DNA of 64,000 nt from Desulfocapsaceae bacterium. GTDB taxonomy: Bacteria > Desulfobacterota > Desulfobulbia > Desulfobulbales > Desulfocapsaceae. Under the pieces are notes generated by a model that searched no databases, was not told where the DNA came from, and worked only from the letters and a program-made list of their open reading frames with translations. Below, one piece after another: positions 45,439 through 49,134 of the stretch. The DNA is taken from the NCBI GenBank assembly GCA_030653035.1, contig JAUSAB010000039.1, positions 1-64,000 on the forward strand, given 5' to 3'. The translations under genes were made by a program, and so were the position numbers. The stretch's first letter is position 1. Each line of letters opens with the position of its first letter.

Positions 45439-46638
45439 ATGGATACATTTCTGGCAAGACAACCCATCTTTGACCGCAATCGTCATATTTACGGGTATGA
45501 ATTACTCTTTCGTGCCGATGAGGCCAATATTTTTCCGCAGATTGATGGCGATGTTGCCACCTCAAAACTGCTCTCATCGACCTTTTTCACCGTGGGCATT
45601 GAGGAAATAACCGGAGGTCGCAAGGCCTTTGTAAATTTCACCAAGCAATTACTGCTGCAAGGAGTAGCCCATATGTTTCATCCAGGCACCTTCGTGATAG
45701 AGATCCTTGAAGATGTCTTTCCTGTCGCTGAAGTGCTTGAGGCCTGCAAAAAACTTCGTACCAAGGGTTATGACATCGCCCTTGATGATTTCACCTGCAC
45801 TTCTCAAACAGAGTGTTTCCTGGAATATGCCACCATTATCAAGATTGATTTCAGGGTAACTTCCCTCGCTGAGATCAAGGATATTCTCCACCGGTTCAGC
45901 CTTCATCCCTGTTCCTTTCTGGCTGAGAAAGTTGAGACAAACGAGGAGTTTAGTCAGGCCAAGGAGTTGGGATTCCATTATTTTCAGGGTCATTTTTTCG
46001 CTCGACCCGAGATGATGAAGCGACAAGATATCTCGCCTGTAAAACATCATATCCTGCAGCTCCTGATCAGGATTTTTCAGGAAGATTGCACGATAACCGA
46101 TCTTGAGCAAATTATTTCCCGAGATGTCTCCTTGAGTTACAAACTGCTGAAGTATATTAACTCCGCCCATTTCGCCCGAATCACCCCTCTTTCATCAATA
46201 AGGCAAGGCATTGCCTATCTCGGCATGAACGAAATCAGGGCCTTTGTCACCATCATCGCCACCAGTAACCTCTGCCAGGATAAACCTAATGAACTTTTAC
46301 GAACCTCAGTCATCCGCGCCCGGTTTCTGGAACACATCGCGACAGAACTCCTGAGGAACAAAGAAGAGTTGTTCATGCTGGGCCTTTTTTCCCTGATTGA
46401 TGCCATACTTAACAACCCGATGGCAGAGCTCACCCAGCGTCTGAACCTCAATGAAAGACTTCAGGAGGCATTAGTCAAAAGAGCCGGGGAGCTGTTTATC
46501 TATCTGGAAATGATCGAATTATACGAAACAGGCCAATGGGAACGACTGGACGTCCTGAAACAGAAAGCAGGAATTGCCGAGGGACGAATAGCCATTTTTT
46601 ATCTTGAGGCCGTTAGCTGGACGGACAGATTTTCCTGA
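45439..46638 (+). CDS. EAL-HDOD signalling protein (YuxH-type)
   Basis: The 399-residue protein has a degenerate EAL domain (about 1-195): the signature is GYELLFR and the metal-binding acidic residues appear only in part, so c-di-GMP hydrolysis is doubtful. The HDOD domain (about 205-390) reads ILQLLIRIFQEDCTITDLEQIISRDVSLSYKLLKYINSA. The combination is typical of YuxH/CdgJ-like regulators of motility or surface behaviour. No partner is apparent nearby. Confidence 0.9.
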   Translation: MDTFLARQPIFDRNRHIYGYELLFRADEANIFPQIDGDVATSKLLSSTFFTVGIEEITGGRKAFVNFTKQLLLQGVAHMFHPGTFVIEILEDVFPVAEVLEACKKLRTKGYDIALDDFTCTSQTECFLEYATIIKIDFRVTSLAEIKDILHRFSLHPCSFLAEKVETNEEFSQAKELGFHYFQGHFFARPEMMKRQDISPVKHHILQLLIRIFQEDCTITDLEQIISRDVSLSYKLLKYINSAHFARITPLSSIRQGIAYLGMNEIRAFVTIIATSNLCQDKPNELLRTSVIRARFLEHIATELLRNKEELFMLGLFSLIDAILNNPMAELTQRLNLNERLQEALVKRAGELFIYLEMIELYETGQWERLDVLKQKAGIAEGRIAIFYLEAVSWTDRFS

Positions 46639-46745
46639 ATAAATTTACAGTGCCATCTCTGTGGAATAATCCAAGACGAAGATCTTGCGAAAAATGTGGA
46701 ATTCGTCGAACAATCAAAAAAAATTGGCAAGAGGAGGAACAATTC

Positions 46746-47027
46746 ATGTTAATGCGTTTTTTTCTGAATGAACCCAATGGCAAGGCCTGAGGCCATTTTC
46801 TGGAGATGATGCCCAGGTTGGGTGCCAAATACAATATCACCATTGAGACCATTTCAAAACCCAGGGCCGAATACCAGACCGATGCCTGGTTTGAGCAGGA
46901 TCTTCCTGTGGCCCCGGCGGTCATGGTGGAAAACGAGATTGTGGTCGAAGGGGCAGATGTATCCATGGATACGGTAGAGGCATGCATCTGCCGCCACTTG
47001 GGAGTACCGGGCCCGAAAGAGGCATAA
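46746..47027 (+). CDS. Small thioredoxin-fold selenoprotein (UGHF motif), 93 residues
   Basis: A strong GAGGAGG site precedes ATG 46746. The frame reads MLMRFFLNEPNGKA, an in-frame UGA at 46788-46790 (codon 15), then GHFLEMMPRLGAKYNITIETISK.. to a TAA at 47025-47027. The beta-alpha-beta start, the cis-Pro-like LPVAPAVMVENEIVVEG and a C-terminal helix with CxC (EACICRHLG) are thioredoxin/glutaredoxin-like. The UGA falls where the active-site Cys should be, so it is read as selenocysteine. A candidate SECIS hairpin is at 46811-46823. Without read-through only a 73-residue fragment from 46806 would be called. The physiological role is unknown. Confidence 0.86.
46811..46823 (+). promoter_or_regulatory. 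Candidate SECIS element of selenoprotein 1
   Basis: GCCCA pairs with TGGGT around a GGT loop whose first base lies about 25 bases after the UGA. The loop contains the G-U dinucleotide typical of SelB recognition. The stem is short and the fold needs testing. Confidence 0.5.
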
Positions 47028-47058
47028 CAAAAACAGACCGAAAAGGATGAAGAATATC

Positions 47059-47325
47059 ATGATCGAGATGATTCTGTTTCACAGCGGCAACCCTGCTTGA
47101 GGGACATGCCAGAAGGCCACAGGTGTGGCCAGGGCCATGCAGGAAAAGTTCAAAGACCAGCTTAACCTGCACATTCATACCACGGATTCACCCGAGGCAG
47201 CAACCTACTCTCTGATGGGATCAACCAATATATTTATCAATCAGCAATGGGTTCCTCTGGATGTGGCCACATCCAAGGAAAAGATGATTGAATATATTGA
47301 AAATCTGCTGGGCCAAAAATCTTAA
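47059..47325 (+). CDS. Small thioredoxin-fold selenoprotein with UGTC motif, 88 residues
   Basis: The frame starts at ATG 47059 (MIEMILFHSGNPA), meets UGA at 47098-47100 (codon 14), and continues GTCQKATGVARAMQEKF.. to the TAA at 47325. UGA followed by G-T-C gives a U-x-x-C redox centre at the end of the first beta-strand, as in thioredoxins. The remaining sequence keeps the fold (LNLHIHTTDSPEAATYSLMGSTNIFINQQWVPLDVATS). A well-formed SECIS-like hairpin follows the UGA. The gene begins 31 bases after selenoprotein 1, so they share an operon. A non-Sec reading would start at GTG 47125 and lose the active site. Confidence 0.9.
47115..47130 (+). promoter_or_regulatory. SECIS element of selenoprotein 2
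   Basis: GGCCAC (47115-47120) pairs perfectly with GTGGCC (47125-47130) around an AGGT loop. The loop starts 21 bases after the UGA. A six-pair stem with an AGGU-type loop is very close to the classic E. coli fdhF SECIS (loop AGGUCU), so the UGA very likely specifies selenocysteine. Confidence 0.8.
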
Positions 47326-47434
47326 TAACAACTCGCCAGATAATAAACCAGCCAGGTTGGACACACCTTCAGATGTGTCCAACCTGTACCATGCTGACAA
47401 CATGACGAAGAGCGCCAGCAATCGGTCATAATCT

Positions 47435-48430
47435 TCAGGAGGCCTGCTCCAGGGCCACCGCCACCGAGACCGAGGCGCCGACCATGGGGTTGTTGCCCAT
47501 ACCGATAAGGCCCATCATCTCCACATGGGCGGGGACCGAAGATGATCCGGCAAACTGGGCGTCCGAATGCATCCTCCCCATGGTGTCGGTCATGCCGTAC
47601 GAGGCAGGGCCGGCACCCATATTATCGGGATGCAGGGTACGTCCGGTGCCGCCGCCGGAGGCCACCGAAAAATATTTCTTGCCCTGTTGAACACACTCTT
47701 TCTTGTAAGTCCCGGCCACCGGATGCTGAAAGCGGGTGGGATTGGTGGAATTCCCGGTAATAGAGACATCCACCCCTTCCAGATGGTTGATGGCCACCCC
47801 TTCACGCACATCGTCGGCGCCATAGCAGCGCACCGCCCCCCGTTCTCCCAGCGAATACGCCTTCTCCTTAACCACGGTCAGTTTACTGCTGGCATAGTCA
47901 AAGGAGGTCTCCACATGGGTAAAGCCGTTGATCCGTGCAATGATCTGGGCCGCGTCCTTACCCAGCCCGTTGAGGATCACCCGCAGCGGCTCCTTGCGGA
48001 CCCGGTTGGCTGATCTGGCAAGACCAATGGCCCCTTCCGCCGCGGCAAAGGACTCATGGCCGGCAATAAAGGCAAAACATCTGGTCTCTTCGCGCAGCAG
48101 CATGGAGGCCAGATTGCCATGACCAATACCCACCTGCCGATGATCGGCCACCGATCCGGGAATACAGAAGGCCTGCAACCCTTCACCCAAGGTCGCGGCA
48201 ATATCCACCGCCCGTTTCTCACCTTTTTTAATGGCAATGGCCGCACCCAGGATATAGGCCCAACAAGCATTTTCAAAACAGATGGGCTGGATCTTTTTTA
48301 CCAGCGCCGCCACATCGACGCCATAGGCATCACACACTTCTTTAGCCTCTTCCAGGCTCTTCATCCCATATTTTGCAAGAACAGGAGTAATCTGATCTAT
48401 CCGCCGGTCATAACTTTCAAACAGTGCCAT
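47435..48430 (-). CDS. GGGtGRT-domain protein
   Basis: The 331-residue protein contains the name-giving GGGTGRT (SVASGGGTGRTLHPDN, about 262-276) of a small conserved family of unknown function found in anaerobes. Other conserved parts are CFENACWAYILGAAIAIKKGEKRA, GIGHGNLASMLLREETRCFAFIAGHESFAAAEGAIGLA and GLIGMGNNPMVGASVSVAVALEQ. No signal peptide or membrane segment is present. It is encoded 11 bases after a NifU-like scaffold gene, the usual pairing of this family, which suggests a metal- or Fe-S-related role. It converges with the selenoprotein pair. Confidence 0.87.
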   Translation of the reverse strand: MALFESYDRRIDQITPVLAKYGMKSLEEAKEVCDAYGVDVAALVKKIQPICFENACWAYILGAAIAIKKGEKRAVDIAATLGEGLQAFCIPGSVADHRQVGIGHGNLASMLLREETRCFAFIAGHESFAAAEGAIGLARSANRVRKEPLRVILNGLGKDAAQIIARINGFTHVETSFDYASSKLTVVKEKAYSLGERGAVRCYGADDVREGVAINHLEGVDVSITGNSTNPTRFQHPVAGTYKKECVQQGKKYFSVASGGGTGRTLHPDNMGAGPASYGMTDTMGRMHSDAQFAGSSSVPAHVEMMGLIGMGNNPMVGASVSVAVALEQAS

Positions 48431-48441
48431 GGTCCTCCTCC

Positions 48442-49134
48442 TTATTCCTTTCTGGGGTCAATTTTTTTAACGGCCTGATCAAAACGGCCATAGGTACCGG
48501 TGGCATCCGCCAACGCCTGAGCAGGCTCCACGCCCTTTTTGATCGCATCCATCATCCGCCCCAAATGGACAAACTTGTAGCCGATGATCTCATCGTCGCC
48601 ATCAAGGGCCAGTTCCAGCACGTAGCCTTCGGTCACCTCAAGATAACGGGGACCTTTGACGCGGGTGCCATAAGTGGTACCGCACACCGAACGCAGTCCC
48701 TTGCCCAGATCCTCAAGTCCGGCGCCAATAGGCAGTCCACCTTCGGAAAAAGCGGACTGGCTGCGGCCGTAAACGATCTGCAGAAAGAGCTCGCGCATGG
48801 CCGTGTTGATGGCGTCACAAACCAGATCCGTATTCAGGGCCTCGAGAATGGTCTTGCCCGGCAGGATCTCGGAGGCCATGGCCGCCGAGTGGGTCATGCC
48901 AGTGCAGCCGATGGTCTCGATCAGGGCCTCTTCAATGATCCCGTCCTTAATATTCAAGGTCAGCTTGCAGGCGCCCTGCTGCGGCGCGCACCAGCCAACC
49001 CCGTGGGTCAGCCCTTTAATGTCCTTGATCTCGCGGGCCTTGGTCCACCCGCCTTCCTGCGGGATGGGCGCGGCCCCGTGACACGCGCCCTGGGCCACCG
49101 GACACATCTTTTGTACTTCAGAAGAGTATTGCAT
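48442..49134 (-). CDS. NifU/IscU-like Fe-S scaffold-type protein
   Basis: The 230-residue protein resembles the N-terminal domain of NifU: KDGIIEEALIETIGCTGMTHSAAMASEILPGKTILEAL contains the scaffold Cys and the following helix. Extra cysteines are in the N-terminal part (MCPVAQGACHGAAP, GWCAPQQGACKL). The longer C-terminal region (GYVLELALDGDDEIIGYKFVHLGRMMDAIKKG) is specific to homologues paired with GGGtGRT proteins. It probably binds Fe-S or another metal; dedicated assembly versus enzymatic function is unresolved. Confidence 0.82.
   Translation of the reverse strand: MQYSSEVQKMCPVAQGACHGAAPIPQEGGWTKAREIKDIKGLTHGVGWCAPQQGACKLTLNIKDGIIEEALIETIGCTGMTHSAAMASEILPGKTILEALNTDLVCDAINTAMRELFLQIVYGRSQSAFSEGGLPIGAGLEDLGKGLRSVCGTTYGTRVKGPRYLEVTEGYVLELALDGDDEIIGYKFVHLGRMMDAIKKGVEPAQALADATGTYGRFDQAVKKIDPRKE

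Follow-up and report, generated by a model that had tools for sequence, protein, structure and literature searches.

A reduced TSO locus with two adjacent, probably selenocysteine-decoded genes, tsoC and tsoX, in a Desulfobulbales (Desulfocapsa-like) bacterium

TsoC and TsoX belong to the TSO ("three selenoprotein operon") neighbourhoods, the description of which is credited, in a 2026 review (PMC13188914), to Haft and Tolstoy (2025, mSystems). The canonical relatives have the gene order tsoA-tsoB-tsoC, often accompanied by a second tsoC and sometimes by tsoX. TsoB fuses a rhodanese domain with two selenocysteine (Sec) residues to a membrane domain of the DsbD type and to a thioredoxin domain. 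TsoR is distantly similar to sulfur- and metal-sensing ArsR regulators, including the sulfur sensor BigR. We know of no biochemical function for any Tso protein. The window analysed here is a whole stretch of 64,000 nucleotides (contig JAUSAB010000039.1, positions 1 to 64,000 of the forward strand, to which all coordinates without a contig label refer) from a Desulfobulbales (Desulfocapsa-like) bacterium. With a probability of about 0.85, it carries a TSO locus that has been reduced and in which two tso genes are decoded with Sec. It adds no new selenoprotein, because both families were already described in 2025.

The first gene, tsoC (46746-47027, + strand), encodes a protein of 93 amino acids with Sec at codon 15 (UGA at 46788-46790, + strand), and a Shine-Dalgarno sequence, AGGAGG (46732-46737, + strand), lies 8 nt before its ATG. 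The second, tsoX (47059-47325, + strand), encodes 88 amino acids with Sec at codon 14 (UGA at 47098-47100, + strand) in a UxxC centre, and is preceded at 11 nt by a weak Shine-Dalgarno-like AAGGA (47043-47047, + strand). The two genes are co-directional and 31 nt apart. Each frame has a single in-frame UGA (...GKAUGHF... in tsoC and ...NPAUGTC... in tsoX), is open on either side of it and ends with TAA. An earlier note on this DNA had described two such frames, each with its own ribosome-binding site, and had stated that gene calling would report fragments only; the coordinates were confirmed, and the mechanical list of open reading frames indeed gives 46806-47027 and 47125-47325. A promoter scan found no sigma-70-like promoter just upstream of tsoC. 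A 15-bp inverted repeat (47353-47386), terminator-like on the - strand, lies between tsoX and a converging gene of the GGGtGRT family.

Pfam gave a significant match for neither protein, and the identity of both was settled by the NCBIfam profiles. The product of the first frame matches NF045708 ("NEPxGxxU-motif selenoprotein") over its whole length with 144.4 bits (cut-off 45) and contains the motif with its Sec (NEPNGKAU); that of the second matches NF045809 ("HSGNPxU-motif (seleno)protein"), also over its whole length, with 131.6 bits (cut-off 52). The UxxC centre proposed for the second frame is borne out by its motif, HSGNPAUGTC, and by an alignment of TsoX proteins in which UxxC is invariant. 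The first frame had been said to hold a lone Sec followed by His-Phe, of which the lone Sec stands and the His-Phe is only partly conserved. In a 34-sequence alignment the Sec position is invariant, while the residues that follow are H/N/S/T and then F/Y/L; Sec15 is hence the sole invariant chalcogen residue of TsoC, the residue three places past it being Phe, Tyr or Leu, not Cys. The TsoC of the window has the motif and the Sec place of NF045708, but its gene adjoins tsoX without tsoA, tsoB or tsoR. Its TsoX shares the HSGNPxUxxC motif of NF045809 and shows no sequence difference from that family; it is the locus that is reduced.

The family to which the window belongs was covered with 93 genomes, of which 29 have tsoC and 11 have tsoX or a tsoX fragment. 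TGA is present in every tsoC match that spans the site, in every full-length tsoX match and in every tsoX match spanning the site. In 395 genomes drawn from the phylum, TGA was found in 40/40 tsoC matches and in 19 of the 20 tsoX matches, the exception having Leu, and all 38 full-length tsoX copies of named genomes carry U at the site. The search for homologues with Cys or Sec at this position, which the earlier note had recommended, gave Sec throughout TsoC and in nearly all TsoX, one TsoX with Leu, and no Cys homologue of either protein in the 93 family and 395 phylum genomes. The Leu-bearing homologue (HSGNPDLTRC; L104 155-409, genome G386) is located at a contig end, and as a single loss it does not outweigh the more than 40 Sec-bearing TsoX copies. 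A second, broken copy of tsoX (G087:C30:37043-37162; L050, L086 and L175) occurs in a genome which also has an intact one. The tsoX matches of two genomes (G300 and G344), which combine TGA with TAG, were considered as possible pyrrolysine cases and rejected, since the TAG, at the C-terminal end, reads as an ordinary stop.

Downstream starts are available in both frames (46806 and 47125), as they should be if each UGA were a real stop and the genes were short open reading frames beginning after it. This is extremely improbable, however, since the residues preceding the UGA rank among the most conserved (NEPxG in TsoC and HSGNP in TsoX), with a low dN/dS, and the UGA itself is retained in nearly all homologues. 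Proteins begun at the downstream starts would, moreover, be predicted to lack the first beta-strand and the active site of the fold.

A bacterial SECIS (bSECIS) check had also been proposed, and it revealed a bSECIS-like hairpin with covariation past each UGA. The bSECIS model (PMC13188914) sets a distance within 16-37 nt of the UGA and a G among the first two loop positions. Both hairpins fit this geometry, with the loop AGGU at 20 nt in tsoX and the loop GGU at 25 nt in tsoC, the energy of the latter being borderline. The tsoX hairpin (GGCCAC-AGGU-GUGGCC, 47115-47130, + strand; -10.2 kcal/mol) shows pairing in 96.7% of cells across 10 homologues, two of which have a C-G to U-A double change. 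In the tsoC hairpin (UGCCCA-GGU-UGGGUG, 46810-46824, + strand) 96% of cells are paired across 34 homologues, compared to 37-55% in slid-arm controls; it has 6 two-sided changes (from G-C to U-A and C-G, in paralogues) and a score that none of 500 shuffles reached. The Arg codon spanning the tsoC loop is AGG in 31/31 copies with Arg at that place. In the window the tsoC stem is weakened by a G-U pair (-5.6 kcal/mol versus -7.7 in most relatives); minimum-energy folding of single sequences did not give a clear tsoC SECIS, whereas comparative pairing did, and for the 54-nt stretch folded from this genome another structure has the lowest energy. The stem is weaker in the window and in the congeneric genome G080 than in the tsoA-bearing members of the genus.

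The genome encodes SelA (620 bits) and SelB (385 bits) and has two tRNA-Sec genes, both above the Rfam gathering score; the absence of selA, selB and selC, which had been named as grounds for discarding the selenoprotein reading, was thus not observed. The tRNA-Sec genes are at G000:C55:34315-34413 (L002; L087 6316-6414) and G000:C35:47501-47594 (L001), the second of which sits between hdrA-like and mvhD-like genes and was missed by ARAGORN. A crude motif scan confined to the neighbourhoods of selA and selB found no SelD there. The conserved UGA, the hairpin downstream of it and the presence of SelA, SelB and tRNA-Sec together indicate, at the level of sequence, that Sec is inserted at both UGA codons.

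TsoX clearly has a thioredoxin fold with a UxxC centre. Its predicted model (pLDDT 94.7) superposes on thioredoxins with Z 12.0 and rmsd 1.6 over 83 aligned residues (Foldseek E 4e-4), and in a PDB sequence search its profile gave weak matches to 1nho (E 1.2e-4) and, weaker still, to thioredoxin-1 chains, the latter matches starting with U14 over residue 32. The similarity to TIGR00411, the MJ0307-family small thioredoxins to which 1nho belongs, has an E of 6e-5 but at 23 bits stays below the cut-off of 92.75. TsoX shares with thioredoxin and the MJ0307 family the same fold, with UxxC at the CxxC position, but differs from them at the usual cis-Pro site, which is apparently Ser-Thr. TsoC probably has a thioredoxin fold too: its predicted model is of moderate confidence (pLDDT 83.5), and the structures that match it best are thioredoxins (Z up to 9.6, rmsd 2.5, 80 aligned residues; Foldseek E 3e-3 at best), while its profile gave chance matches only against PDB sequences. 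Unlike thioredoxin, it has no second Cys. Two tandem small, thioredoxin-like selenoproteins, as the earlier note had it, are thus upheld by conservation, SECIS covariation, the Sec machinery and structure prediction.

In the genus of the window, five genomes have tsoA-tsoC-tsoX without tsoB; in all five an ArsR/SmtB gene of the NCBIfam TsoR cluster lies upstream, and in three a gene of the TsoY cluster directly follows tsoX. Genes of this cluster, identified as TsoY (NF047643) on L150, are found near tsoX in six loci (L150, L140, L141, L142, L160 and L165). Elsewhere (L180), a tsoA copy with Arg for Sec (HLRLAEC; G002:C109:2458-2886) stands beside a tsoB carrying two UGA codons. The pair in the window occupies a syntenic site with ligA-AsmA-Usp-Hsp33-HDOD on one side and GGGtGRT-NifU-like-methyltransferase-protease-DTD on the other. 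Its immediate flanks, which by Pfam and synteny are context outside the system, are an EAL/HDOD-domain gene (45439-46638, + strand) on the left and the GGGtGRT-family gene (47435-48430, - strand; PF14057, 644.6 bits) on the right. The latter adjoins a NifU/IscU-like gene (the two spanning 47435-49134 in the window), with ~90-99% identity within the genus.

At this site, G085 has tsoR-tsoA-tsoC-tsoX, the window tsoC-tsoX, G084 a fused tsoA-tsoC remnant (with the 3' part of tsoC) and an intact tsoX, G080 tsoC alone, and G079 fragments of both tsoC and tsoX. In the interval from the HDOD gene to tsoC, the window still has a pseudogene scar of ~73 nt (46673-46745, + strand), which derives from the tsoA 3' end and is recognised by its collinear DNA match to the tsoA 3' ends of relatives. 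When the 28 nt proximal to the Shine-Dalgarno sequence were excluded, the score of the scar was reached by 0-2 of 500 shuffles for four relatives and by 38/500 for a fifth. No match to TsoA was found in the genome of the window, while the same model finds TsoA in 22/93 family genomes; nor is there a TsoB-grade match, the best (E 3.3e-12) coming nowhere near the cut-off, which 20 relatives passed. TsoY was not found in the assembly, in a search without an internal positive control. The locus of the window thus descends from a TSO locus, as the syntenic site and the tsoA scar attest, and yet is without TsoA and TsoB, which help define TSO. On the evidence of sequence it is the remainder of tsoR-tsoA-tsoC-tsoX once tsoR and most of tsoA were lost.

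The earlier note had regarded the paired arrangement as unusual. This does not hold, as tsoC and tsoX are normally members of larger TSO loci, where neighbouring selenoprotein genes are to be expected. A bare pair left after the loss of the rest of the cluster is a little unusual; together with the deletion series it is all that is new here. The same bare pair, tsoC-tsoX without tsoA, exists in another genus, in a Desulfobulbus genome (L148).

The changes in tsoX on this lineage cannot be told from neutral, so decay of the pair may have begun. It might be a relic, unneeded since tsoR and tsoA were lost and intact-looking because that loss is recent. Changes were polarised against relatives, and the window branch may in part be older than the loss of tsoA. 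For tsoX, 7 nonsynonymous and 5 synonymous changes give an omega of 0.40 (P 0.10), not significantly below neutral. Later stages of such a decay are seen at the same site in G084 and G079, and the weaker tsoC SECIS stem is common to both genus genomes in which tsoC is intact and tsoA missing. Against this, the two frames in the window are intact, as are their SECIS elements, the bare pair has been kept in Desulfobulbus, and tsoC, with 6 nonsynonymous and 9 synonymous changes (omega ~0.19, P 0.002 versus neutrality), looks constrained on this lineage, even though the branch may partly predate the loss. We regard a decaying relic as rather unlikely.

From the fold and the neighbours we give about even chances to a role of the pair in a small Sec-based thiol/persulfide redox relay. 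TsoX would act as a thioredoxin-like protein in which Sec replaces the attacking Cys: U14 would attack a disulfide, persulfide or selenosulfide and C17 would resolve the adduct. With no resolving Cys in a fixed place, TsoC, a putative one-Sec thioredoxin-fold protein, would either end in a mixed selenosulfide or serve as a carrier of sulfur or selenium, and a partner thiol, plausibly that of TsoX, would be needed to clear it. In full TSO loci, TsoB would be the membrane partner and TsoR would control the set. The domains of TsoB and the likeness of TsoR to its distant relatives suggest a chemistry of reactive sulfur or of metal/metalloid thiols, and the job is likely to be the reductive handling of reactive sulfur or of metal/metalloid-thiol species in sulfur-cycling anaerobes. 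In the genome of the window, the pair would have to rely on general thioredoxin or DsbD-type partners, or else is on its way to being lost.

The missing resolving Cys of TsoC, together with the ArsR/SmtB-type regulator of full loci and its distant likeness to BigR, would also suit regulators or carriers that sense or deliver selenium or persulfide, instead of reductases. Such a function is unlikely for the pair: the UxxC of TsoX is invariant, as in reducing thioredoxins, and nothing here shows binding or sensing. We tentatively suggest, at somewhat less than even odds, that TsoC and TsoX together make up a minimal redox module of two selenoproteins, self-sufficient and able to outlive TsoR, TsoA, TsoB and TsoY, which was kept independently here and in a Desulfobulbus, the partner of TsoC being TsoX and not TsoB.

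Standard gene calling drops the half of tsoC- and tsoX-type genes that encodes the active site. Natural deletions in a single genus form a series (A-C-X, C-X, X alone, C alone and fragments) to which the locus belongs. The series parts TsoC and TsoX from TsoA and TsoB and therefore allows tests of which Tso proteins work together. The tsoC-tsoX pair offers a simple two-gene case for working out the function of proteins to which none has been assigned.
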